A DNA stretch of 64,000 bases, taken from contig NZ_PYGC01000011.1 in NCBI RefSeq assembly GCF_003014495.1, positions 62,001 through 126,000 of the forward strand. The letters are read 5' to 3'. Shown here in pieces: positions 52,627-64,000 of this stretch; position 1 is the stretch's first letter; every line of letters begins with the position of its first letter. The position numbers were made by a program, and so were the translations under genes. The notes under the pieces were generated by a model, which was not told the DNA's origin, searched no databases, and saw only the letters and a list, made by a program, of their open reading frames with translations. The stretch comes from Prolixibacter denitrificans. Lineage in GTDB: Bacteria; Bacteroidota; Bacteroidia; Bacteroidales; Prolixibacteraceae.

Positions 52627-54024
52627 ATGGAAAAGTTCAGAACAGAAACCGATTCAATGGGCGAAATTCAGGTTCCCGCCGAACATTACTGGGGAGCGCA
52701 AACCCAACGTTCATTTCAAAATTTTCAAATCGGAACCCAACGTTTTCAGTGGCCTTCACCGATTATCCGGGCGTTGGGGATTGTGAAAAAGGCTGCAGCA
52801 CAGGCAAATGAGGAACTCGGTGAGTTGCCGTCTGACATTGCCGGTAATATTATGGCTGCCGCCGAAGAGGTGATCACCGGCCGGATGGACAGTGAGTTTC
52901 CGTTGGTGGTCTTTCAAACAGGTTCGGGAACGCAATCGAACATGAATGCCAACGAGGTGATTTCCAATCGCGCTATCGAAATGATGGGCGGCGAAAGGGG
53001 AAGCAAGAAACCGGTTCATCCCAACGACCATGTCAACCGCAGTCAGTCGTCGAACGACACGTTTCCTACGGCCATGCACATTGCGTTGGTTGAAGAGTTG
53101 CACAAGCGTCTTTTTACTTCGGTTGAGTTGCTGCGAAAAACACTGGCTGATAAATCGGACCTGTATCAATCGATTGTGAAAACCGGACGCACGCACTTGC
53201 AGGATGCCACGCCGTTAACGGTAGGACAGGAGATGAGCGGCTGGGTAGCCCAGCTCGATTTCGCGATGGAAGGCATTCGCGCTTCGCTTCCCGGATTGTA
53301 TGATCTGGCTATTGGAGGAACGGCAGTGGGTACCGGATTGAACACCCATCCGCAGTTTGCCATGCGGGCGGTGCATTTTATCTCCGAAATTACGGGGCAT
53401 CCTTTCCGTAATGCACCCAATAAGTTCTTCGCACTCTCGGCACACGACGCGCTGGTGCAGACTTCGGCAGCACTGCGTACGCTGGCCGGGGCGTTGATGA
53501 AAATTGCCAATGATGTGCGCTGGCTGGCTTCCGGCCCCCGTTGTGGTATTGGCGAATACAATATTCCGGCTAACGAGCCCGGTTCATCTATCATGCCCGG
53601 TAAGGTGAACCCTACCCAAAGCGAAGCATTGACCATGGTTTGTGCCCAGGTGTTTGGTAACGATGCCACCGTCGCTTTCGCGGGAAGCCAGGGAAACTTC
53701 CAGCTCAATGTGTACAAGCCGGTGATGGCGCATAACGTATTGGAGAGTATCACGCTGCTCGCGGATGCCTGTCGGTCGTTCAATGAACATTGCGCGGTGG
53801 GAATCGAGCCGAACTTGCCAAGGATTAACGAGAATATCCAAAAGAACCTGATGCTGGTTACGGCACTAAACCGCCACATTGGATACGATAAGGCGGCCCG
53901 GATTGCTAAGAAAGCCCACGCGGAAGGGAAGACCTTACGGGAAGCCGCACTGGAATTGAAATACGTATCGGAAGAGGAATTCGACCAGTGGGTCATTCCA
54001 CTGGAGATGACCCACCCGCATTAA
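52627..54024 (+). CDS. fumC: Fumarate hydratase, class II
   Basis: A 465-aa iron-independent fumarase. [45 protein letters not shown] and [15 protein letters not shown] are all present, the last with the catalytic Ser of the SS loop. It converts fumarate and malate in the TCA or reductive succinate branch. ATG 52627 gives the family N-terminus ([14 protein letters not shown]). The oxygen-stable class contrasts with the Fe-S hydro-lyases at 16.9-20.5 kb. Confidence 0.96.
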
Positions 54025-54035
54025 TAAGAAAAAAA

Positions 54036-54070
54036 AGCCTCGTCAGGAAATTCTCCCGGCGAGGCTATTT
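54036..54070. terminator. Intrinsic terminator, probably bidirectional
   Basis: The stem AGCCTCG (54036-54042)/CGAGGCT (54060-54066), with an A tract upstream and TATTTTAT downstream. It sits between the convergent fumC (+) and SDR (-) genes. Confidence 0.78.
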
Positions 54071-54117
54071 TATAATATCAGTGTAGGGTCAGGCCATGTC
54101 CTGACTTTTCAAAATCA

Positions 54118-54717
54118 TTAATACAACCGGATAACTTCTCCCGTAACGTATCCTTCTACACTACGAAGATAACCACTCACGGTCCGTTTCATGGTAACGG
54201 GCAGATGGCCGGGGAAGAGGTGTCCCTGTCGTTCGGCGGCATCTTCCACCAAACCCGGAGCGACGACATTGATGCGCAGGCCGCGTTTCAGTTCCCGTGC
54301 AGTGGCTATTACAAAGCTGTGAATACCTCCGTTCACCATCGAAGCACCTACCGAACCTTTCACCGGGTCTTCGCCCAGAATACCGGTTGTGAGGGTAAAC
54401 GAGCCGTTATCTTTCAGGTAGCGCTGTCCAATGCGCACCAGGTTGACCTGTCCCATCAGTTTATTGCGGATGCTGATGTAAAAGTCTTCTTCCGTCAGGT
54501 CCTCGAAATTGCCCCACTTGGTGGCGCCGGCAATGGAAATAACGGCATCCAGGTTGGGAACATCCTGAAACATCTTCTCGATAGAGCCTTCCGAGGCTAA
54601 ATCCACGTTGACATCACCGCTTTTCCGTCCGGCCACAACTACTTCGTGTCGTTTCTTCAATTCCGTTGTTACCTTGTTGCCAATGGTGCCGTTTCCACCG
54701 ATAATCAATATTTTCAT
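54118..54717 (-). CDS. Short-chain dehydrogenase/reductase
   Basis: A 199-aa SDR. GGNGTIGNKV (7-16) is the dinucleotide motif; AGRKSGDVNVDL suggests NADP preference. The usual catalytic YxxxK is not evident: the region reads SVGASMVNGGIHSFVIATA, so Tyr and Lys are replaced. This matches a family of small atypical SDRs in Bacteroidota and Proteobacteria. Substrate unknown. Confidence 0.85.
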   Translation of the reverse strand: MKILIIGGNGTIGNKVTTELKKRHEVVVAGRKSGDVNVDLASEGSIEKMFQDVPNLDAVISIAGATKWGNFEDLTEEDFYISIRNKLMGQVNLVRIGQRYLKDNGSFTLTTGILGEDPVKGSVGASMVNGGIHSFVIATARELKRGLRINVVAPGLVEDAAERQGHLFPGHLPVTMKRTVSGYLRSVEGYVTGEVIRLY

Positions 54718-54752
54718 CTTGCTGTATTCTTTTTATGTCCGACTGTTTGTTT

Positions 54753-54790
54753 GCAAAAGGTAAACGGTTGATTCGGTATTTGGTTTGATG
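54753..54790 (+). repeat. 38-bp direct repeat, copy 1
   Basis: It matches 55277-55314 at 33 of 38 bases (shared GCAAAAGGTAAACGG and TTTGGTTTGATG blocks). Copy 1 lies upstream of the small lipoprotein gene. Confidence 0.6.
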
Positions 54791-54887
54791 CTTGTTGAAA
54801 AAGAAAAAATCGATGGCCGATTATAAAGCAACCTTTTTATTTATCGGCTCATCCTATTACCACTATGAGAACCTAATTTGTCAGACT

Positions 54888-55184
54888 ATGAGAAAAGTAA
54901 TGATTCTACTATTTGTGTTAATTCCTGTTTTTTCCAATTGCACAAAAGATGATTCCGAATTGATTGCCCAAATCAGGGAGATAGCCTGGAATTCACTGGA
55001 TGACCAGGAAAAATCGACGGTGATAATTGACTGGACACAGGCGAAAGTTGAAATGACAACTTACAACGATAAAAGTGCTTACTCTGTGATATTTAATACA
55101 GATGCTGATGCTCTGTTAGGCCCTATTACTGTATATGTTGATCCAGTTACTAAGAAAGTACTGGGATATGCCGGAAGGTTTTAG
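54888..55184 (+). CDS. Small lipoprotein, 98 aa
   Basis: A start at ATG 54888 gives a clean signal (MRKVMILLFVLIPVFSNC) with lipobox FSNC. A longer reading from 54792 adds a non-conserved stretch. The mature part is about 80 residues: a helix with DSELIAQIREIAWNSLDDQEKSTVI followed by a beta-rich half (AKVEMTT, AYSVIFNTDADALLGPITVYVDPVTKKVLGYAGRF). The end PITVYVDPVTKKVLGYAGR is a common closing pattern of NTF2/PepSY-like small domains. Function unknown. Confidence 0.65.
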   Translation: MRKVMILLFVLIPVFSNCTKDDSELIAQIREIAWNSLDDQEKSTVIIDWTQAKVEMTTYNDKSAYSVIFNTDADALLGPITVYVDPVTKKVLGYAGRF

Positions 55185-55276
55185 TATAGTCGTTCAGGCA
55201 ATTTCCGGTAAAAAAGCTATAATTGCAGACCTTGTTTAGAGCCTGTTAACCGGGTAATATGTTCCGGCGTGTGTTA

Positions 55277-55314
55277 GCAAAAGGTAAACGGTCTATCCGG
55301 ATTTTGGTTTGATG
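55277..55314 (+). repeat. 38-bp direct repeat, copy 2
   Basis: A copy of the sequence at 54753-54790, without a gene behind it. Similarity continues weakly into a GGAAAAGAAAAGG stretch. Confidence 0.6.
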
Positions 55315-55384
55315 AGGCATGGAAAAGAAAAGGAATTGCTCCTCAGATATTACATTCTCTCAGAATAAAATATTCCTGAAATGT

Positions 55385-55407
55385 ATATGACTCCGGGGGA
55401 GTCATAT
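55385..55407. repeat. Palindrome, GACTCC-type
   Basis: 10-bp arms ATATGACTCC/GGAGTCATAT around GGG. First of three adjacent palindromes of similar design. Confidence 0.7.
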
Positions 55408-55438
55408 ATTGTTAGGCAACAGAAGGCCAGCGTTTATT

Positions 55439-55456
55439 CGACCCCGGCCGGGGTCG
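55439..55456. repeat. Perfect palindrome CGACCCCGGCCGGGGTCG
   Basis: An 18-nt perfect palindrome; second of the cluster. Confidence 0.75.
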
Positions 55457-55490
55457 TACGGAAAAGAGCCAGGGGTTTTATTCTAACAAC

Positions 55491-55513
55491 ATACCATCCC
55501 GCCGGGATGGTAT
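55491..55513. repeat. Palindrome, ACCATCCCG-type
   Basis: 11-bp arms ATACCATCCCG/CGGGATGGTAT around one C; third of the cluster. The design (AT-rich flank, GC-rich centre) is shared by all three. Confidence 0.75.
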
Positions 55514-55600
55514 TACGGTGCGAGCAAATTCATCTGCTGTAATAGAGGCATGACTCCGCAATGGTATACTATTACGCTGCATACAGATGAGCTCAAATCT

Positions 55601-55679
55601 TTCTACTGTTCTTTTTTTGTCTTTCTACTTAGAAAGGTGGATCACTTATAGGTAGGATTTTTTAAAAAGAACAGTAGAA
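55601..55679. repeat. 79-bp element with 16-bp perfect terminal inverted repeats
   Basis: TTCTACTGTTCTTTTT (55601-55616) is exactly reverse-complemented at 55664-55679. Between them is a smaller palindrome CTTTCT/AGAAAG (55621-55636). It has no coding capacity. It could be a MITE-like remnant or a large RNA hairpin. Confidence 0.6.
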
Positions 55680-55903
55680 GTTTCTGAACTTATACGTAGA
55701 AGTTTTTACCAACACAGAAACAATGGTATTTGTCGGGAATTTTCCTTTGGAATATCATGCATTGAAATACTCCAATTTCTTGTTCTCGCTGGGGCTGTTC
55801 ATAAATAGGTAAGGGGCTAAAACACTTGGAAGCTAAAATTTTGCTATTTTCAGAAGTAGAAAACCTGACTGATGAAACAATAGACTTCACTGGTTTTAGT
55901 AAA

Positions 55904-56797
55904 ATGATAAAACAAAGGAGAAATATAATATTCGTTTTTTTATTGTTGTCTATCAACCTATCAGCGCAAGTTCGGTATGATACCATTCCTCGAGATGATG
56001 AGGCTGAAATTGGTGGGTGGTCAGAAAAATTGCCTGTTTTTAAAGATTTTTTGGGTCAGATGTCAACTTATTTTTCAAAAGTAGATTGGGAAGATCTTGA
56101 TTGTTACGGCAAGAAGGTTTATGTGTCGACGACTTTTGGGAAAGACGGAAAGCTGAAAGACACAAGAGTCCTGAGAGCAGTGAATCCGGCTTGTGATTCA
56201 ATGGCATTTTATTTTGTTAAAGGACTAAAAGAATGGCTGCCGGGGTTACACCGAGGAAGGTTTGTTGATATTTCTTTCGTTTTTCCTATTAGGTTCGATA
56301 GCACGTTTAATGACAGAAAGTCGGGTTCCTCATTCTTTCTTGATGAAACGGAAGAAGAATATGCAAAGAGGAAAGCTTATTTTGACTTTGTTTATTCGAA
56401 CGAATATGGACAAGAGATTATCGGTGACTTTGAGCTTTTCAGGAATTACTTGGCCGAAGTTTTGAGCGATAGTCAGCACGTGTACATTTTTACTGATTAT
56501 GAGTTCCCAAGAAAAGAAGGAATCGAGCTACGGTTTAAACCTCCTGAAAATAAGGATTTGCATCTATTAGTACGAGCTCCTAAACAGAACCGGGTACTCT
56601 ATGACTATCGTATACGGAGGGGAAAAGTGCGTATTCCCAGAGAAAAGAAATTATTTCTTCTGTTCTATCAAGAGGGCACTCCTCCATTGCTTCAAACCGG
56701 GATAATGTATGCAAAAGATGATACAACCATCAATTTGACACTAGAGCATTATACAAAAGGACAATTATTGGATGAAATAAAGGAAATTCAGCAATGA
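55904..56797 (+). CDS. Secreted TonB-C-like domain protein, 297 aa
   Basis: ATG 55904 gives a signal peptide (MIKQRRNIIFVFLLLSINLSAQ region). An upstream in-frame start at 55826 adds a non-signal leader. Residues about 60-125 resemble the TonB C-terminal domain seen in Bacteroidota (FGKDGKLKDTRVLRAVNPACDSMAFYFVKGL in segments, then VDISFVFPIRF), but the protein lacks a TonB N-terminal anchor and proline linker. The C-terminal 100 residues are a beta-rich domain with ELRFKPPENKDLHLLV. Unknown role. Confidence 0.65.
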   Translation: MIKQRRNIIFVFLLLSINLSAQVRYDTIPRDDEAEIGGWSEKLPVFKDFLGQMSTYFSKVDWEDLDCYGKKVYVSTTFGKDGKLKDTRVLRAVNPACDSMAFYFVKGLKEWLPGLHRGRFVDISFVFPIRFDSTFNDRKSGSSFFLDETEEEYAKRKAYFDFVYSNEYGQEIIGDFELFRNYLAEVLSDSQHVYIFTDYEFPRKEGIELRFKPPENKDLHLLVRAPKQNRVLYDYRIRRGKVRIPREKKLFLLFYQEGTPPLLQTGIMYAKDDTTINLTLEHYTKGQLLDEIKEIQQ

Positions 56798-56942
56798 TAT
56801 ATAGCCGCATATCATAACTAGGGATTACTATTGATTTTACCAATTTATGTTAATGTATTACTGAATAATTTTCTAACTTGTCAATACTTATAGTTGTCAT
56901 ATTAATAAATATAAACTTGTATCAACACTAAAAAGAATAACC

Positions 56943-57128
56943 ATGAGCAAGAAAAGTCGAAGCAATAATTCTGCCGGGGGCGCCGTGTATGGACTGGGTT
57001 TCATCGGAGCAGCCATCTACTTCATATCCGTTGCCACCAGCTTTTGGATGGGCGTACTGGGATTCTTGAAAGCCATTGTTTGGCCGGCTTTTCTTGTTTA
57101 TGAGGCGTTTAAGTTTTTTGCCAAGTAA
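56943..57128 (+). CDS. Small conserved membrane protein, 61 aa
   Basis: Two hydrophobic segments (about 15-32 GLGFIGAAIYFISVATSF and 36-52 GVLGFLKAIVWPAFLVY) follow a Ser/Lys/Asn-rich start MSKKSRSNNSAGG. The Gly-rich AVYGLGFIGA and the VWPAF segment recur in small proteins of many bacterial phyla, in my memory of such sequences. It is probably an inner-membrane protein of unknown function. Confidence 0.7.
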   Translation: MSKKSRSNNSAGGAVYGLGFIGAAIYFISVATSFWMGVLGFLKAIVWPAFLVYEAFKFFAK

Positions 57129-57235
57129 AGTCGCCTGTTGCTGGGAACCGATAGTTAAAACCTCATTTTTTTCTCTGTTGCTGTTTGTAAAAGCGAATTG
57201 CATTTATCCTGTTTGTTAGCAACAATTCTGACCCA

Positions 57236-57802
57236 TTGCCAACTAACACACTTTTCAACGATATTCGTCTGGGCGATAAAAAAGCTTTCGATAAGCTGTT
57301 CCTGGTTTATTACGGGGAACTATGTCGTTTTGCCTATACGTTTGCTAAAGATTTCGATCATTCGGAAGAGATTGTTCAACGCATGTTTGTCAGAATCTGG
57401 GAGAATCGCAAGAAGTTGATTGAACCGGAGAACGGGAAATCCTATCTCTACAAAGCAGTTTATAACGAATATTTGAAGCACCGGAGAAGCGAGGACGTTC
57501 GAAAACAATACCACCTCAGTTATATTTTAAATAAAAATGATGATGAGGAGGAAACAGAGTCATACCAACAGGTACTTCCATTACTGAATAAAGCGATAGA
57601 TATGCTGCCGGAGAAATGCCGGCAAATTTTTGTATTGAACAAACTGGAAGGCCTTACCCAGAAAGAGATTGCTGAGTATTTGAATATCTCAGTAAAAACC
57701 GTCGAGAATCAGGTCGCCATAGCCGTTTCCAAACTACGGGAAGAGTTGAAACCATACCTTCATTTATTGCCGGCTACATTACTGTTGATTGTTTTTCATT
57801 AA
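57236..57802 (+). CDS. ECF-type RNA polymerase sigma factor, TTG start
   Basis: A 188-aa sigma factor of the same FecI group as the one at 35.9 kb, with FDKLFLVYYGELCRFAYTFAKDFDHSEEIVQRMFVRIWE and MLPEKCRQIFVLNKLEGLTQKEIAEYLNISVKTVENQVAIAVSKL visible as regions 2 and 4. No ATG or GTG exists in frame before the conserved start. TTG at 57236 is the only good choice, since the frame closes upstream at 57188-57190. Sigma factor, FecR and the STN protein form one operon. Confidence 0.88.
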   Translation: MPTNTLFNDIRLGDKKAFDKLFLVYYGELCRFAYTFAKDFDHSEEIVQRMFVRIWENRKKLIEPENGKSYLYKAVYNEYLKHRRSEDVRKQYHLSYILNKNDDEEETESYQQVLPLLNKAIDMLPEKCRQIFVLNKLEGLTQKEIAEYLNISVKTVENQVAIAVSKLREELKPYLHLLPATLLLIVFH

Positions 57803-57861
57803 AATTTTCACTCGTTCTTTGGGGGATTCATTTTCGGGAAGGTTCATTCTTAAAAAAAGCA

Positions 57862-58815
57862 ATGGAACCCATTCCGATGCATCTTATTATTCAGTCATTC
57901 GAAAGCGGGTTGTCAGAAAAAGAGCAGCAGGAGCTTGATACGTGGTTGGCGGCATCAGACGAAAACCGGCAGCAATACGAAGAATTGCGAAAAACGTATG
58001 TTGCCGGCGGAAAACTGAACATCGACTTCGAACCGGATGCCCGGAAGGCATTAGCGAAAGTACACCGGCGGATTCATTCGAAGAAAGTCATTCGTTTCAC
58101 CTGGCGGGTAACTGCTGCCGTCATTTTCCTGGCGCTGGTTACCCAGGTTGTTTTACAAACACAATCAACTGCCAACTGGAATGAGGTTATCGCTCAGCAA
58201 CGGCAAACTGTTTATCTGCCCGACAGCTCCAAAGTCATTCTGGCGAAAAACGCGTATTTGAGCTACCCATCTACCTTTACGAAAAATGAGCGCGATGTTC
58301 GGTTGAGCGGAACAGCCTATTTTGAAGTGACTCACCATCCCGAACGACCATTTCGAATAAAGACAGCCGATGCTCAAATAAAAGTATTGGGTACCAAATT
58401 CCTGGTGAAATCCGGGTTGAAGAATACGGAGAGCGTTTCGGTAGACGAAGGACGGGTAGCATTCCGGACTGGTTCGTTATTCGCACGACATAAGGTGATT
58501 TTGACCAAAAATGAAATTGGAATTTGGAATGCCAAAGATCATCAGTTAACCGAACAAGACAACCCTAATCCGAACAGCAACGCATGGATTTCGGGGCGAC
58601 TTTCGTTTACGAGCGCACCGTTGTCGGACGTTTTAAAAACATTGGAAGACCACTTTAAAATATCTGTAGAATTAGCTGATGAGAATTTCGCCGACCTGAA
58701 ATATTCCGGGCAATTTAACGACCTGGAAGGCGCTCAGAAGATTATACAAACCATTTGCCTTACCCTTAATCTTTCATACCAACAACAAACTAACCACTTT
58801 ATCCTTACACCATGA
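57862..58815 (+). CDS. FecR-family anti-sigma factor
   Basis: A 317-aa protein with one TM at about 75-92 (VTAAVIFLALVTQVVLQ). Its periplasmic FecR domain reads TVYLPDSSKVILAKNAYLSYPSTF, VRLSGTAYFEVTHHPERPFRI and IKVLGTKFLVKS; a C-terminal DUF4974-like domain follows (LSFTSAPLSDVLKTLEDHFKISVEL). Its stop overlaps the next start (ATGA), so it is coupled to the STN-domain protein. Confidence 0.92.
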   Translation: MEPIPMHLIIQSFESGLSEKEQQELDTWLAASDENRQQYEELRKTYVAGGKLNIDFEPDARKALAKVHRRIHSKKVIRFTWRVTAAVIFLALVTQVVLQTQSTANWNEVIAQQRQTVYLPDSSKVILAKNAYLSYPSTFTKNERDVRLSGTAYFEVTHHPERPFRIKTADAQIKVLGTKFLVKSGLKNTESVSVDEGRVAFRTGSLFARHKVILTKNEIGIWNAKDHQLTEQDNPNPNSNAWISGRLSFTSAPLSDVLKTLEDHFKISVELADENFADLKYSGQFNDLEGAQKIIQTICLTLNLSYQQQTNHFILTP

Positions 58816-60386
58816 AAAAATTATTGCATCTACTCATCCTGTTTACATTGATGTCGGGAACCGCGTTGGGACAAATGCATTCCCCGACGACCTATCTGGA
58901 CATCCTGAAAGGGCTTTCCGGAAAGCTAAAACTCGAACTCAGCTACAGTCCCGATTTGGTAGCGCTGAACGAAAACACGACTACTCAATTCAGCGCTAAT
59001 GCTGATAGTTGTATTACTGAATTGGAAAAAACAGCCAATTTGAGAATTACACAAACGGATACGCATTTAATTGTTGCATCGAAAGCACCGGCTTACATTC
59101 GCTTACAGGGAAAAGTAGTCGACGCAAAAACTGGTGAGTTGTTGCCCTATGCCAATATTTTGATTGGAAAAGCCGGGGCAGGTACAATTACCAATACCGA
59201 AGGCGCATTCGATTTTAAAATACAAGGGCGCTTTGCCGGAAGTCTGATTCGGTTCTCGTTCCTGGGCTATAAAAGTCAGCAGCTCTTCATTCCTTATGCC
59301 AGTGATAGCAGCATCGTTGTAAAAATGATACCTAAACCTTATCTGTTAAGTGATGTGTATGTGTTACCCAATGGTACCGCGGCAGTTGATATTGTCAAAC
59401 GAGCGGTTAAAAATATCAAGCGAAACTATGCACGAACGACCACTCAGATGGAAGCTTTCTACCGCAACACCAACTACCGTGATACGATAGCCTCTCAGAT
59501 TATTGAAGCGGCTTTGCTGATCCAGGATCGGGGAATTAATACCCAGCCGTCAACCACACGAATTCAGGTTGAGGAACTAAGGAAAAGTAATAGCTACCTG
59601 GTTCCTCAAAGTAAAAAGGAAAAATTGGCTTTTGCATTGATGGATAAAATGTTCGGCGGGCATCGAAATATTTTATATCGGGCCTATGCAAATAGCGTAA
59701 GATATTACCGTATGAGTTGGTGGTACAAGCCCTTGACAGACTATGAAACCTTTAAGTACGAATTTGCCGGTTTTGAGTGGCTCGATTCGGTTAAAGTATA
59801 CAAGATTAAGTTCATTTACGATAAGCTCCAACCTGACGGAAAGAGAGCTTCAGAAAATAAAAATTCGGAAGACGGCGGGTATATCTATGTCAGCTCGAAA
59901 GACTGGGGAGTCTTGAAAATGGAAAGATGGTGGAAGGTATTGAATGATAGATTTCTTACGAATATGGTTATCAAAGACAACTATATCTGGAGAACGGAAA
60001 CAGGCTACCCGAAAATTAGCGGGAAGTACTATTTAAAATACAAAACCGGTTTTGCCACGCCCAATGGTACATCTGCCGTTTATGAAAATCCGGACGCGCC
60101 TAAGAAAGAGAGAAAGATAAAGGAAAGACAATGGGCCGAATATGTACTTCTGGTCACCAAGGTAATCACGGATAAAAAAGAGATGGATAAAATCAGGTAT
60201 CGTGAAAAACTGGCCCGCGACGAACATACTTACGAAGCAAAATATCCTTATCATCCCACGTTCTGGGAAACCTACAACATTCTAAAAGAAAATCCGGTAC
60301 AGGAGAAATTCATCAAAGAGATGGAATGGGAAAAATCGCTGGATATTCAGTTTAAAGAAAACTCATCCAACTATGCTAACAACTAA
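58812..60386 (+). CDS. STN-domain plus carboxypeptidase-regulatory-domain protein without TonB barrel
   Basis: A 524-aa secreted protein. Signal peptide 1-20; STN-like domain about 22-97 (LDILKGLSGKLKLELSYSPDLVAL ... TQTDTHLIVASK); CarboxypepD_reg-like domain about 102-178 (RLQGKVVDAKTGELLPYANILIGKA, ITNTEGAFDF). The remaining 340 residues are a mixed alpha/beta domain (AFYRNTNYRDT, YRMSWWYKPLTDYETFKYEF, GYIYVSSKDWGVLKMERWW) shared with DUF5686-like proteins. It has the sensor domains of a SusC/FecA receptor but no plug or 22-strand barrel, so the usual transport signal must come from elsewhere. It overlaps the next gene by 14 bp. Confidence 0.8.
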   Translation: MKKLLHLLILFTLMSGTALGQMHSPTTYLDILKGLSGKLKLELSYSPDLVALNENTTTQFSANADSCITELEKTANLRITQTDTHLIVASKAPAYIRLQGKVVDAKTGELLPYANILIGKAGAGTITNTEGAFDFKIQGRFAGSLIRFSFLGYKSQQLFIPYASDSSIVVKMIPKPYLLSDVYVLPNGTAAVDIVKRAVKNIKRNYARTTTQMEAFYRNTNYRDTIASQIIEAALLIQDRGINTQPSTTRIQVEELRKSNSYLVPQSKKEKLAFALMDKMFGGHRNILYRAYANSVRYYRMSWWYKPLTDYETFKYEFAGFEWLDSVKVYKIKFIYDKLQPDGKRASENKNSEDGGYIYVSSKDWGVLKMERWWKVLNDRFLTNMVIKDNYIWRTETGYPKISGKYYLKYKTGFATPNGTSAVYENPDAPKKERKIKERQWAEYVLLVTKVITDKKEMDKIRYREKLARDEHTYEAKYPYHPTFWETYNILKENPVQEKFIKEMEWEKSLDIQFKENSSNYANN

Positions 60387-61050
60387 TAATATCACAAAGA
60401 AATTCGGGAGCTTTGTAGCCGTCGACCAACTTAGCTTCGAAATCAAAGAGCCCGGACTTTACTTGTTTGTAGGAGACAACGGTTCCGGAAAAACCACCTT
60501 GTTTAACCTGATAGCCGGCCTGATCAATCCCAATAAGGGTGAAATCAGTCTCGACGACCAGACGGATGCCGATTTGCGCCGGAAACAAATGGGGATTGCC
60601 ACCGAACCGTTCACCACAGAACCATCAATAACGGTAAGTGAAATTGCGGAAATCGTCCGAAAAGTAAAGCATGTTTCTCAGGAAGAAATGAAAGAACTGT
60701 TGAAGCAGTGGGAGATATGGACGGCCCGTGAGAAACCGTTTAAAGCCCTTTCAACGGGAATGAAGAAGAGGCTGAGTATTGCTTTGTCGATGGCCGGAAA
60801 TCCGGAGTTTTTCCTTTGGGATGAACCGTACAATGGACTTGATCCGCTTGGCATCAGCTTACTGAACCAGGTTATCGGGGAACTTGCCGAAGAAGAGAAA
60901 ACCATTCTTCTTTCAACACACCTGCTGAATGAAATAACTGTGCCCGCCAAAACCGGATTTGTTATGAAAGAAGGACGTTTAGCCGGCCTTGTTCATCGTG
61001 ATTCTTCTGCCAACTTCAACGAATCGATTATGGACCTTTTAAAAAACTAG
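60373..61050 (+). CDS. ABC transporter ATP-binding protein
   Basis: A 225-aa ATPase with Walker A GDNGSGKTT (34-42), signature LSTGMKKRLS (non-canonical LSTGM for LSGGQ, as in many ABC-2 exporters) and Walker B FFLWDEPYNGLDP. It is encoded in one chain with a 240-aa permease 2 bp downstream. Confidence 0.93.
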   Translation: MLTTNNITKKFGSFVAVDQLSFEIKEPGLYLFVGDNGSGKTTLFNLIAGLINPNKGEISLDDQTDADLRRKQMGIATEPFTTEPSITVSEIAEIVRKVKHVSQEEMKELLKQWEIWTAREKPFKALSTGMKKRLSIALSMAGNPEFFLWDEPYNGLDPLGISLLNQVIGELAEEEKTILLSTHLLNEITVPAKTGFVMKEGRLAGLVHRDSSANFNESIMDLLKN

Positions 61051-61052
61051 CA

Positions 61053-61775
61053 ATGATTAGCATCGAGATAAAACTATTCAAAAATAAAAAGCAGATTCTT
61101 CCGGCAGCTGTTTTGTTGCTGGCACTACTTTTCCTGGCTTTTTTTGAGTATTGGTTTGGAGCCGGAGACAAGCAACTAAATGGTGCTGCATTGGCCGAAT
61201 TCGTTTCGATACGGGCCAGTCAGTCAACCTTGCCAGCCTTGTTCTTTCTGTTTTGGGTGTTACAACGTACTGTTCACCTGATTAACACGGGCTACTACAA
61301 AATGCTTCTGGTAAATGGCTGGCCGCGCCACCAACTGTTTTTGTACAGTATTCTGCAAGTTAGTTTGTATGCTCTCTCGTTTCTGCTGCCGAATTTTATT
61401 TGTTACGCTGTTCTCAGCTTCTTCTATAGCACTAACCCACTGCAATTACTTTTGAATACCGATTATAACGCGTTAATATCGCAGTTCTTATATCTCACAG
61501 CAACTGGTTTTATTGCACTAACCATTGCTTTTTGGCGTCCTTCGCCGGTCATGGCTTTACCCCTTCTGGTATACTGGCTGCTCGAAGGTTGGGTGGTTAA
61601 TATTATCCACCGTAAGCTGGAGTCCGACGCCGGTAACTTCTTGCCGCTTCAGGCCATTAAACAAACGATCTCCGAGAACCTGCTGGGTACGCCACAAATA
61701 GCGATGATAGCTGCTTATTCGCTGTTGTTTTTACTGATTCTCCATCTTTCCATCCAAAAAAGAATGTTCGTATGA
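61053..61775 (+). CDS. ABC transporter permease-like membrane protein, 240 aa
   Basis: Six hydrophobic segments (about 15-32, 50-70, 95-118, 133-152, 158-175, 210-230); no hydrophilic periplasmic domain. Similar in layout to the ABC-2 permeases of bacteriocin self-protection and antibiotic export systems. It lies between the ATPase and a thioredoxin-like gene, whose start overlaps this stop. Confidence 0.8.
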   Translation: MISIEIKLFKNKKQILPAAVLLLALLFLAFFEYWFGAGDKQLNGAALAEFVSIRASQSTLPALFFLFWVLQRTVHLINTGYYKMLLVNGWPRHQLFLYSILQVSLYALSFLLPNFICYAVLSFFYSTNPLQLLLNTDYNALISQFLYLTATGFIALTIAFWRPSPVMALPLLVYWLLEGWVVNIIHRKLESDAGNFLPLQAIKQTISENLLGTPQIAMIAAYSLLFLLILHLSIQKRMFV

Positions 61776-62344
61776 AGTTGAAATATCCCATCATTATTGT
61801 TCTTGTTTTTGTTACGGCATTGGTATTGAATAACAAGGTAACCGAATGGAAAACCTACCGCTTCTATAGTCAATTGAAAAGTATTGATGATCCCATTCGG
61901 GAGGAACTTAAAAAAGATGAATTTCTCAGCGACGAAGCCGATGACTCAACCCTGGTGATTAATCTGTGGGCGACCTGGTGTGGCCCCTGCCAGAAGGAAA
62001 TTCCTTTATTGAATGGGCTCGTGGATAAATACGAAGATGGACATACGCTTTTTCTTTCGGTCACCGATGAGAGTGAGAAAGAAGTCTCGGAATGGGTGGA
62101 ACTGCAAAAAAACGAGCCGGAATATTTCCCGATGTATGAAAACAAACGGCTGATGAACTACCTGTTTCAACTGAACCCGAAAGCTGGCTTGAAAAAAGGA
62201 CGATTCCCGGAATTGTAGCCTACCAACATCATTATCCACAATGGAAAATTGAGGCTTTTTGAACAGGGCTTCTCGAAAGGAAATGTCGCAAAGATGGATT
62301 CTGTTTTGGCAAAAATAAAAGGTGAAAAAGATAGAAGATTATAG
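61772..62344 (+). pseudogene. TlpA-like thioredoxin gene interrupted by an in-frame amber codon
   Basis: Membrane-anchored (TM 5-20) thioredoxin-fold protein with WCGPC at residues 69-73 (Cys70, Cys73). The frame closes at TAG 62216-62218 after RFPEL. The same frame then continues for another 41 sense codons, PTNIIIHNGKLRLFEQGF and a helix ending KDRRL, to a stop at 62344. That segment is the missing cis-Pro strand and C-terminal helix of the thioredoxin fold. A single Tyr (TAC/TAT) to TAG change would explain it. Either a recent loss, a sequencing error, or amber read-through. Confidence 0.75.
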
Positions 62345-62412
62345 TTGACATTTTTTGGTTTTAAAGAGAATTGACGTTGAGAACTGCAGGTCTCTCGCTA
62401 AATAAATGATTG

Positions 62413-62911
62413 ATGAGAACAGCATTAACCACTGTCATATTATTCTGTTTTTTGGGCACTTGCTTTGCGCAAAAATCAAATAAGGGTATTTATAAGGAAT
62501 TATATCAGTTCGCGGCAAACACTGGCCGATTGGATACGAAAATGAAAATTCCAAATGATGGTTATTCTGCTCTGTGTGAGAGAGTTGATAAGTTCAGATG
62601 GTACTTTTAGTCAACAATATGGTATATATCAATTTGAAACAAACACTGAAGATTCGGGAATAAACATTCTTTTCAAAAAGAAAGAGAATTATGAAATCTA
62701 TGATATATCGAATTTTGGATTTTTTATGTCACGATTATTAAGCATTTTAAATGACACTTCATTTAATCTAACCGATTCGATCAAATTGAAATATATACGA
62801 GAGGTAGTTAATATCTATAAAGAGAATTCAGAACTACAAGTAAATATCACTCTTAAAGTAGATCACGGTCGATTTAAGATGTTTATTGATAATAGCAATT
62901 TTGTTAAGTAG
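62413..62911 (+). pseudogene. Frameshifted secreted protein gene
   Basis: A signal-peptide reading frame from ATG 62413 (TVILFCFLGTCFAQKSNKG) closes at 62610. The adjacent frame, from about 62555, continues with IYQFETNTEDSGINILFKKKENYEIYDISNFGFF and a beta/alpha pattern to 62911. The two parts overlap over 62555-62610, so one insertion or deletion there would restore a single protein of about 165 residues. It follows the interrupted thioredoxin gene. No recognised family. Confidence 0.6.
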
Positions 62912-63026
62912 ATTTCCTTTGAGTATTTGATGTTGAGGTAAGCTGTTGATATAGTTTTGCTTATTTCTGACTTGTGTTTTGAATGACTTGGTCCTCAATT
63001 TCTACATGGCGAAACTATGGAAATGT

Positions 63027-63383
63027 CTATCGTCCCAACGCCTCCTTAATCGCTTCCACCGTCTTTTTCGCGTTCCCGACAAACAGTTGACCGTCGATTT
63101 CGAAGATGGGGCGTTTCAGGAAAGTGTAATCTATCAGCAGCAGTTTTTTGTAGTCAGCATCGCTGGTCACCGGATGTTCGGTCAGGGCATCCTTCAGTTT
63201 GCGGGCCCGTTTGTTGATCAATTCCTCATAACTGCCAGTTTGCTGGTAGAAACGCTCTACCTGTTCTTCGGTTACAGGATGGAACTTGATATCCTGCTGT
63301 TCAAAGCTGTCGTCAACACCCACTTCTTTCATGATTCGCTTGCTGGTGTCGCAGGTTGAGAGGTAATATACTTTTCGTTGCAT
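63027..63383 (-). CDS. ArsC/Spx-family protein
   Basis: A 118-aa thioredoxin-fold protein. The active-site-like segment VYYLSTCDTSKRIM has Cys11 at the ArsC position; the second half has RARKLKDALTEHP and LLIDYTFLKRPIFEIDGQLFVGN, matching the family's RP-x-cis-Pro strand. It is YffB/ArsC-like; whether it reduces arsenate, or is a regulatory or thiol-handling relative, cannot be told. ATG 63383 is chosen over 63467. Confidence 0.85.
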   Translation of the reverse strand: MQRKVYYLSTCDTSKRIMKEVGVDDSFEQQDIKFHPVTEEQVERFYQQTGSYEELINKRARKLKDALTEHPVTSDADYKKLLLIDYTFLKRPIFEIDGQLFVGNAKKTVEAIKEALGR

Positions 63384-63433
63384 GATTATTCTTGTTTTGG
63401 GCAGGAAGATAGGGAAAAATGGAAACAAAACAG

Positions 63434-63470
63434 GCGCAGCAGGCTTCCACAAAAGCCTGCTGTGCACTTT
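63434..63470 (-). terminator. Intrinsic terminator of the DsrE-like gene
   Basis: A 13-bp stem GCGCAGCAGGCTT (63434-63446) with 63453-63465, one G-T pair, loop of 6, followed on the - strand by CTGTTTTGTTT. Confidence 0.85.
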
Positions 63471-63488
63471 TTATATAAACTGTGGTGT

Positions 63489-63911
63489 TTACAGTTCGAT
63501 ACTCATGTATCCTTCTTTCTGTAATTGAAAGTCATAAAGGAGCCCGTTTTTTGTTACATGAATTTGTTTGGGCAAGCTTTGGGGAGCGATCTTAAATTTC
63601 TTTAAAGACAATCCGCAAGCATACAATTCAACGTGATTTTTTTCTGCCATTTCCAGGTACGGGGCCATCTTGTCCATTTGAGTGACATTGGTAATTGTTT
63701 TACCGCAAATTATCACCTTAAACTTACCAAATTGACTTCCGTCTTCAGCGGCCAAATCTTTCGCTGCCAGAATAATTGGCTTCAATTGTTTTATGTTCCG
63801 GGTGAGAACGATGTAGTTTTTAACGTTTGAATTTTCCGGAACCCTGGCCTCACTTTTACCTGCCGTCAGGAGCGTGAAAATGGCGGCGATCATAACGATG
63901 TATGTTTTCAT
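63489..63911 (-). CDS. Periplasmic DsrE/DsrF-like protein
   Basis: A 140-aa protein with a signal peptide (1-22, ending SEAR). The DsrE-type fold is visible: YIVLTRNIKQLKPIILAAKDL, GKFKVIICGKTI, MAEKNHVELYACGLSLKKFKI (Cys conserved in DsrE) and VTKNGLLYDFQLQKEGYMSIEL. Members of this superfamily carry sulfur, but an exported version suggests a stress or thiol role. Its ATG overlaps the TGA of the upstream membrane-protein gene (ATGA), so the two are co-translated. Confidence 0.83.
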   Translation of the reverse strand: MKTYIVMIAAIFTLLTAGKSEARVPENSNVKNYIVLTRNIKQLKPIILAAKDLAAEDGSQFGKFKVIICGKTITNVTQMDKMAPYLEMAEKNHVELYACGLSLKKFKIAPQSLPKQIHVTKNGLLYDFQLQKEGYMSIEL

Positions 63912-64000
63912 GCTTTCGTGTTTTTGAAGATGTTAAAATTGTTATTCAAAGCGAAGAACATCAATCCTCCAAATATGGCGATGTTCTTAAACAACGGTCC
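63908..64000 (-). CDS. DoxX-like membrane protein, C-terminal fragment
   Basis: The final 30 codons of a gene entering from the right edge. The hydrophobic end PLFKNIAIFGGLMFFALNN resembles the last TM of DoxX family proteins (LKNxAIxGGLL). It is in operon with the DsrE-like gene. DoxX and sulfur-carrier pairings are known, but the fragment is too short to be certain. Confidence 0.45.
   Translation of the reverse strand, partial: GPLFKNIAIFGGLMFFALNNNFNIFKNTKA

Follow-up and report, generated by a model that had tools for sequence, protein, structure and literature searches.

Could a FecR-type trans-envelope relay take its signal from a protein that carries no outer-membrane receptor barrel? 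Such relays are commonly portrayed as nutrient-reporting receptor systems, and the question is raised by a six-gene cassette of Prolixibacter denitrificans, located in a 64,000-nucleotide stretch that is here called the window (bases 62001-126000 of contig 11, in a genome of 4.73 Mb and 36 contigs). In this cassette an extracytoplasmic function (ECF) sigma factor and a FecR anti-sigma factor are followed by a 524-residue protein composed of an STN domain, a carboxypeptidase-regulatory-like domain (CPDreg) and a further domain designated X, and then by an ATP-binding cassette (ABC) ATPase, a permease and a membrane-anchored thioredoxin (Table 1). A preliminary description of this DNA had read the locus as the relay reused for an export or envelope-stress function. 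The best explanation, which in its main lines we would place just short of an even call, is a FecI/FecR-type trans-envelope relay with the outer-membrane receptor replaced by a periplasmic sensor; this and the other likelihoods given for the readings are a matter of judgement and were not computed. The wiring looks new, and the function is a prediction.

The STN domain and its gene linkage to FecR

The Pfam model for STN (PF07660) has no match in the 524-residue protein at E<=1, and PF13715 is the sole Pfam or NCBIfam match above cut-off (49.8 bits, cut-off 32.2). Despite this silence of Pfam, profiles and modelling taken together indicate that the STN domain is real, which we accept because profile-profile comparison and the structural model agree. 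In an hhalign comparison, residues 22-93, taken as a profile over five orthologues, scored 93.8% (E 1.7e-7) against STN domains drawn from eight SusC-type proteins that this genome encodes, whereas three other segments of the protein, used as controls, gave 0.1-0.3% against the SusC STN profile; against twelve FecR_C domains the profile of residues 22-93 scored 58.9%. In the AlphaFold2 model (mean predicted local distance difference test, pLDDT, 83.2), residues 24-93 resemble the N0 domain of the secretin InvG (7ah9_5B; Z 7.7, root-mean-square deviation (rmsd) 2.4, 68 aligned), and residues 94-179 match the NTE of SusCdex (9hfj; Z 12.6, rmsd 1.8, 80 aligned). No plug or receptor family of Pfam or NCBIfam exceeds its cut-off in the protein, the model contains no barrel, and no hydrophobic span passes the threshold used beyond the signal-peptide-like start; the SusC/RagA model TIGR04056 stays below its cut-off, with 49 of 368.25 bits over residues 97-205 only. 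The earlier claim of an STN protein devoid of a TonB receptor barrel is therefore upheld, as is the claim that STN and CPDreg precede a non-barrel domain, X being predicted as such when residues 180-524 are folded alone.

The presence of STN tracks that of FecR. Twenty-eight regions around X-type genes were compared, 16 of them STN-bearing (five cassettes, eight of a second type within the family, and three in families f60 and f105) and 12 STN-less. FecR lies in the cluster in all 16 STN-bearing regions and sigma in 15, and with the window added the count for FecR is 17 of 17, while neither FecR (0/12) nor sigma (0/12) accompanies X in the STN-less regions. Furthermore, bare operons of sigma, FecR and STN-CPDreg-X protein were found in three loci of two other families of the order (L116, L117 and L118), in each of which an STN-less X copy lies just upstream of sigma and no pump adjoins. 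Given this contrast and the existence of bare three-gene sets, a barrel-less FecR relay is well supported, and we regard one in which STN docks to FecR as probable; the same contrast provides a ready set of test pairs. It can also be noted that in four loci the gene after the STN-less CPDreg-X gene encodes a hydrophobic protein some 210 residues long (L079 7882-8520, L081 7217-7903, L082 8136-8774, L077 8578-9204), which had no Pfam match in the two instances tested.

Thirteen FecR loci are present in P. denitrificans, of which ten continue with a SusC-type protein of about 1100-1200 residues, one with an 843-residue Plug-domain protein, and two with a barrel-less STN protein. The second of these barrel-less loci, on another contig (L041), represents a different type of relay, in which a 519-residue aspartyl protease with a PDZ domain, whose N-terminus looks STN-like in our own reading, stands next to FecR. 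Related sets were found in L043 and in all six regions fetched for STN-bearing matches (L084-L087, L089, L091); in some loci of this second type the aspartyl-protease gene lies between FecR and the STN-CPDreg-X gene, and a protein with an MG2 domain is often present. In a FecR tree of 27 rows, from which L091 was omitted, its FecR being split in two frames, the six FecRs of the cassette fall into a single clade (99/99) that excludes the ten SusC-type FecRs of P. denitrificans; the separate grouping of these ten has values of 84/57, short of what the tool treats as firm support.

Domain X and a proposed sensing route

Structure prediction of residues 180-524, which the preliminary description had suggested, yielded a model (28-row alignment, pLDDT 86.7, predicted TM-score 0.87) whose top matches are of the LolA/LolB/RseB type. 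Every one of the first 18 rows of the Foldseek search (E 5.2e-7 to 3.4e-4) is a LolA, LolB, LolA-like, DUF1329, RseB/MucB, LppX or LprG chain, and so is each of the top 18 from VIA-align; absence from the VIA-align lists does not count against a family. Among the best matches listed by VIA-align, where by the tool's own warning a Z near 8 can reflect a common arrangement, the top Z belongs to LolA3 of Porphyromonas gingivalis (9tp6; Z 8.8, rmsd 4.8, 186 aligned), and RseB (2p4b; Z 8.2, rmsd 3.6, 130 aligned) and MucB (6in8; Z 7.2, rmsd 3.6, 150 aligned) are also found; vitellogenin-type lipid carriers and porins are among the lower-ranked structural matches. Because one superfamily fills the top of the match list, a LolA/RseB-like fold is favoured, and judging from the model X quite likely has it. 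In sequence, X of the window protein has no Pfam family at E<=1, and PF17131 (best E 0.016) appears in 3 of the 28 X members, the window protein not among them. X is homologous along its length to the STN-less relatives (hhalign 100%), and R218, E232, A233, R257, W485 and N489, among others, are invariant across the 28 members. A relative 51% identical to the last 200 residues is encoded on a contig titled Sulfurimonas sp. MAG (L010 3-605), possibly Bacteroidota DNA that ended up in a mixed bin.

Several known systems share part of this architecture. The FecI-FecR-FecA and SusC-type STN relays have the same order of genes, with an ECF sigma factor, a FecR bearing an STN-like C-terminus and STN in the third gene; in FecI-FecR-FecA, however, the partner is a TonB-driven plug-and-barrel receptor, whereas the cassette lacks both plug and barrel and continues with the genes of an ABC pair and of a thioredoxin. 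According to excerpts of PMC11637429, the STN domain of FoxA protects the anti-sigma factor FoxR until the signal arrives, and a freed STN domain alone can hold the anti-sigma factor, which resembles what is proposed here, although that STN was cut from a TonB receptor and the cassette STN is encoded without one and fused to X. Excerpts of PMC7400510 liken RseB/MucB to LolA, LolB and LppX and report that the MucB cavity binds lipid A, whereupon MucA is released; RseB/MucB with RseA/MucA places a LolA-like fold beside an ECF sigma/anti-sigma pair, a likeness to X that is structural and not one of sequence. RseB grips its anti-sigma factor directly, whereas in the cassette the link would be STN and the anti-sigma factor is FecR rather than RseA/MucA, and the X protein may work like RseB despite its FecR partner. 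Another envelope-stress ECF relay of Bacteroidales without a nutrient receptor is the sigma factor with a periplasm-spanning anti-sigma factor of Phocaeicola and Bacteroides (PMC9308784 and PMC13088901, both in excerpt), where a barrel-ended anti-sigma factor mediates, in Phocaeicola, a protective response to toxins (PMC9308784); there one large anti-sigma factor has its own outer-membrane barrel, while the cassette uses FecR and a separate soluble protein. Bacteroidota LolA/LolB (excerpts of PMC11885536; P. gingivalis 9tp6 and 9tpm) are among the solved folds nearest to X, but X comes as a fusion with STN and CPDreg, and sequence profiles do not match it to LolA. The portions of the FecR review PMC9249621 at hand mention no receptor-less FecR signalling, and full-text searches of an open-licence library turned up no description of an STN/FecR relay lacking the barrel.

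The route that we propose would run as follows. FecR anti-sigma factors hold sigma at the inner membrane, and in the resting state FecR would keep the cassette sigma bound there. The STN domain of the 524-residue protein would dock on the STN-like C-terminal domain of FecR, as domain identity and strict gene linkage suggest, and X, a predicted half barrel, could bind a lipidic or amphipathic ligand, for instance lipid A, a lipoprotein in the wrong place or a peptide that acts on membranes, a step suggested by the fold alone. By analogy with FoxA/FoxR, the ligand would alter the contact between STN and FecR, leading to cleavage of FecR and release of sigma, which would then transcribe the cassette, whose ABC pump and anchored thioredoxin, to judge from the operon structure, would handle the offending molecule or the damage. 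That sigma drives the exporter seems somewhat more probable than not to us, and the modelled fold leaves it evenly balanced whether X senses a lipidic or amphipathic ligand; the probable X fold at least gives the earlier idea of envelope stress a concrete form.

A broader conclusion, offered tentatively and with less confidence than any of these parts, is that of a separate Bacteroidales envelope-signalling branch, combining FecIR with sigmaE-RseAB, in which an RseB-like sensor of lipids or amphiphiles is wired to FecR by a borrowed STN, and which exists in a bare three-gene form beyond the family and has exchangeable outputs. If true, those outputs would be the exporter and thioredoxin here and aspartyl-protease/PDZ and macroglobulin-like proteins elsewhere. 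Should a barrel-less STN protein with a fold like that of lipid binders indeed drive FecR, receptor-less FecR/sigma pairs of Bacteroidota could be read as envelope-stress systems, and the STN-FecR contact could be studied with soluble proteins.

Conservation and competing explanations

Among 140 genomes of the family, relatives of the STN protein at >=42% identity occur in six (P. denitrificans, G068, G036, G013, G124 and G040), and the permease profile finds the same six and no other. The nearest named relative found, Maribellus maritimus of the Prolixibacteraceae (which NCBI assigns to Marinilabiliales, whereas the wider group is Bacteroidales in GTDB), was examined as locus L009, and G040 gives the same matches. 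The search for the same gene order that had been recommended was run: the order of six genes is complete in P. denitrificans, G068, G036 and G013 and also, with frameshifts, in Maribellus, so that four of the five other genomes with an STN orthologue share it (one frameshifted) and the fifth has all but sigma. Lack of conserved linkage with the exporter genes, named at the outset as a refutation, is contradicted by the presence of relay and exporter genes together in all six genomes. The sigma orthologues of four other loci are 57-62% identical, and whole-protein identity of STN-CPDreg-X between genomes is 42-65%. The 4-bp overlaps of fecR with the STN gene and of the permease with the thioredoxin gene are each kept in five of six loci, and the STN/ABC overlap is 14 bp in five of six and 17 bp in G013. 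By our reading of translations, the flanking genes differ among P. denitrificans, the G036/Maribellus/G068 group, G013 and G124. A chance operon was rejected, order and overlaps being conserved across loci.

Several observations weigh against a periplasmic sensor having replaced the receptor. The structural match of X is middling, with a best Z of 8.8 and, over the 18 top Foldseek rows, TM-scores of 0.2-0.4 and rmsd values of 10-21 Å; the X profile found nothing among PDB sequences at E<=10; and hhalign of X gave 0.1% against a LolA-like profile built from three related loci that are LolA by our own reading. The STN/FecR regions were picked by hand rather than sampled at random, and members of one type share ancestry and cannot count as independent, so that a Fisher value for the contrast should not be read literally; and if the extra STN-less copies before sigma in the three other-family loci are counted, 3 of 15 STN-less copies lie near FecR. 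G124 has the genes from FecR to thioredoxin with no sigma gene next to FecR, and at least one cassette gene is broken in two of six genomes (the window thioredoxin; the STN gene and permease of Maribellus), as might equally be expected if the unit were dispensable or in decay.

X might instead act as a carrier resembling LolA/LolB, serving a hydrophobic or lipidated product that the ABC pair moves, with the thioredoxin aiding its folding and STN, FecR and sigma reporting flux and adjusting supply. We find this unlikely, even though X stands as near to carriers as to sensors (LolA3 and RseB differ by less than 1 Z), the genes of the ABC pair and the thioredoxin lie tightly together in a single operon, and in L077, L079, L081 and L082 an STN-less CPDreg-X lies next to a small hydrophobic protein with no relay: no lipoprotein or precursor gene is evident among the six cassette genes, the permease has no match to any LolC/E-type Pfam family, and the three bare loci have no adjoining pump. 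Affinity of the ATPase for NosF (PDB) and CcmA (NCBIfam), together with the CGPC motif of the thioredoxin, would accord with a redox or metal assembly unit resembling the NosDFY- or Ccm-type exporters, in which the relay would respond to a cofactor or to the state of thiols; the same ATPase, however, best matches lantibiotic-protection (NCBIfam) and lipid-type ABCA (PDB) proteins, none above a naming cut-off, and no cytochrome or copper-enzyme gene was seen in 54000-64000, which makes such a unit improbable.

A TonB receptor encoded elsewhere and signalling through this FecR had been foreseen as a refutation; in that case the 524-residue protein would be an accessory or a decoy that competes for FecR. 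Barrel-type STN receptors are indeed the usual FecR partners and nine are detectable in P. denitrificans, but all nine lie next to their own FecR, the cassette FecR belongs to a separate clade, and outside the family the third position is held by the barrel-less gene alone; no orphan STN receptor able to drive the cassette FecR was found among the nine, and while one may still exist, we hold this account to be poorly probable. Least credible of all is that the 524-residue protein is a SusC-like receptor that has shed its barrel within a decaying cassette, as the TIGR04056 match to residues 97-205 (49 of 368 bits) and the broken genes of two genomes could suggest, since X constitutes a conserved domain in its own right, matching its STN-less relatives throughout, whole-protein identity is kept between genomes, and no broken gene was seen in four other cassettes.

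Within the order, a search with the ABC ATPase at E<=1e-45 returned P. denitrificans alone of 344 genomes, and the STN-protein profile at 1e-40 returned P. denitrificans and G305 of 295, the match in the latter being without STN. Within the class, the permease profile at 1e-6 found P. denitrificans and G551 (2/395), the latter showing no relay and a PadR gene close by, and the profile of the second-type STN-CPDreg-X protein at 1e-35 found 7 of 198 genomes, the STN part being in the match for four (P. denitrificans included). Left out of alignments A2 and A6 were L016/L045, which carry the broken Maribellus gene, L026, which contains unread residues, and L031, L037, L042 and L044. In a congener (G113), window positions 55250-57128 and 63028-63432 lie only 37 bp apart, and from this empty site it follows that the block between them behaves as one unit; the permease is missing from three congeners, and either gain by transfer or loss in the congeners may fit. 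The G+C content of the block is 41.4%, against 45.5% in the rest of the window. Mobile-element ends were considered and not found: the two compared junction stretches share no direct repeat >=9 bases, and the window contains no tRNA gene.

Cassette anatomy, exporter genes and neighbouring features

The sigma factor, FecR, STN protein, ABC ATPase and permease lie where the preliminary description had placed them, coordinates and family matches being in agreement, and the genes overlap or nearly touch as had been stated (+59, -4, -14, +2 and -4 bp from sigma to thioredoxin), the STN-CPDreg-X gene overlapping fecR by 4 bp and the ABC ATPase gene by 14 bp. The thioredoxin starts at 61772 and is therefore almost entirely beyond the range of 57236-61775 covered earlier. 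The sigma factor scores 148.7 bits against TIGR02985 (cut-off 126.4), as expected for a FecI-type ECF sigma, and FecR matches PF04773 and PF16344 above cut-off, with a single membrane span near residues 76-94.

Table 1. Coordinates of the cassette, its domains and related loci (window positions unless a locus is named).
Feature	Location	Strand	Description
Six-gene cassette	57236-62218	+	ECF sigma, FecR, STN-CPDreg-X protein, ABC ATPase, permease, anchored thioredoxin
ECF sigma factor	57236..57802	+	188 aa, TTG start, TIGR02985 (Bacteroidota sigma-70 family 1)
FecR anti-sigma factor	57862..58815	+	317 aa, FecR domain and STN-like FecR_C domain
STN-CPDreg-X protein	58812..60386	+	524 aa, signal-peptide-like N-terminal segment, no barrel
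STN domain	58881..59090	+	residues 24-93
CPDreg/NTE domain	59091..59342	+	residues 94-177
Domain X	59349..60383	+	residues 180-524, LolA/LolB/RseB-like predicted fold, no Pfam family
ABC transporter ATPase	60373..61050	+	225 aa, PF00005
ABC permease partner	61053..61775	+	240 aa, at least 5 hydrophobic spans, no Pfam family above cut-off
Membrane-anchored TlpA/ResA-like thioredoxin	61772..62218	+	148 aa, CGPC, ended by TAG 62216-62218
Remainder of thioredoxin frame	62219..62344	+	open, homologous, starts with conserved Pro-Thr; stop 62342-62344
Block missing whole from congener G113	57129..63027	+	flanks 37 bp apart in L101
Second-type relay	L041 4647-11992		contig C2, P. denitrificans; sigma, FecR, 519-aa protein, 496-aa STN-CPDreg-X, 859-aa MG2-domain protein
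Bare sigma-FecR-STN/CPDreg/X operon	L116 1456-5835		other family of the order
Bare sigma-FecR-STN/CPDreg/X operon	L117 5861-10192		other family of the order
Bare sigma-FecR-STN/CPDreg/X operon	L118 6931-11148		other family of the order

An ABC-2 exporter and a membrane thioredoxin had been described downstream, of which the ATPase, a multi-span permease and an anchored thioredoxin are present, but Pfam does not identify the permease as ABC-2, and the thioredoxin is cut short here. The best NCBIfam model for the ATPase is TIGR03740 (lantibiotic-protection), whose cut-off of 309.75 is not reached with 144.6 bits, and CcmA gives 91.4 bits (cut-off 131.6); in the PDB its closest relatives are ABCA-type, then the NosF (87.5 bits) and LptB ATPases. 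For the permease, no ABC-2 family was found in Pfam at E<=5 across five members, the only match being DUF2705 (0.064 in one), and PDB sequences gave none; the label of ABC-2 exporter thus rests on the neighbouring ABC ATPase and the hydrophobic segments.

The window thioredoxin retains its anchor and CGPC but stops at 148 residues, before the last part, whereas the other five copies have 182-185. The TAG sits directly before a conserved Pro, and the residue aligned with it in the five orthologues is Leu (four) or Tyr (one); 41 further codons past it stay open and homologous, so this TAG may be a nonsense change or a sequencing error. In Maribellus maritimus (L009 8001-10962) the STN gene and the permease are split between reading frames, and the cassette may be impaired in both species or the sequences may be in error.

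A sigma-70 promoter scan found 9 sites against 11.4 expected, and an Rfam scan of 54000-64000 gave no match at gathering threshold. Membership in a defence system was considered and rejected, the cassette giving weak or generic ATPase and sigma/helix-turn-helix model matches only. A short stretch ending in TTTG near the sigma start aligns in five loci, two of which are near-identical there, and with start codons uncertain no inference is drawn from it. A possible small secreted-protein gene, apparently split over two frames, lies at 62413-62911, inside the block missing from the congener. Upstream of the cassette, at 55826-56797, a protein of 323 residues has a sub-threshold TonB_C match, and similar stretches lie near the STN-less CPDreg-X genes of L042 and L044.

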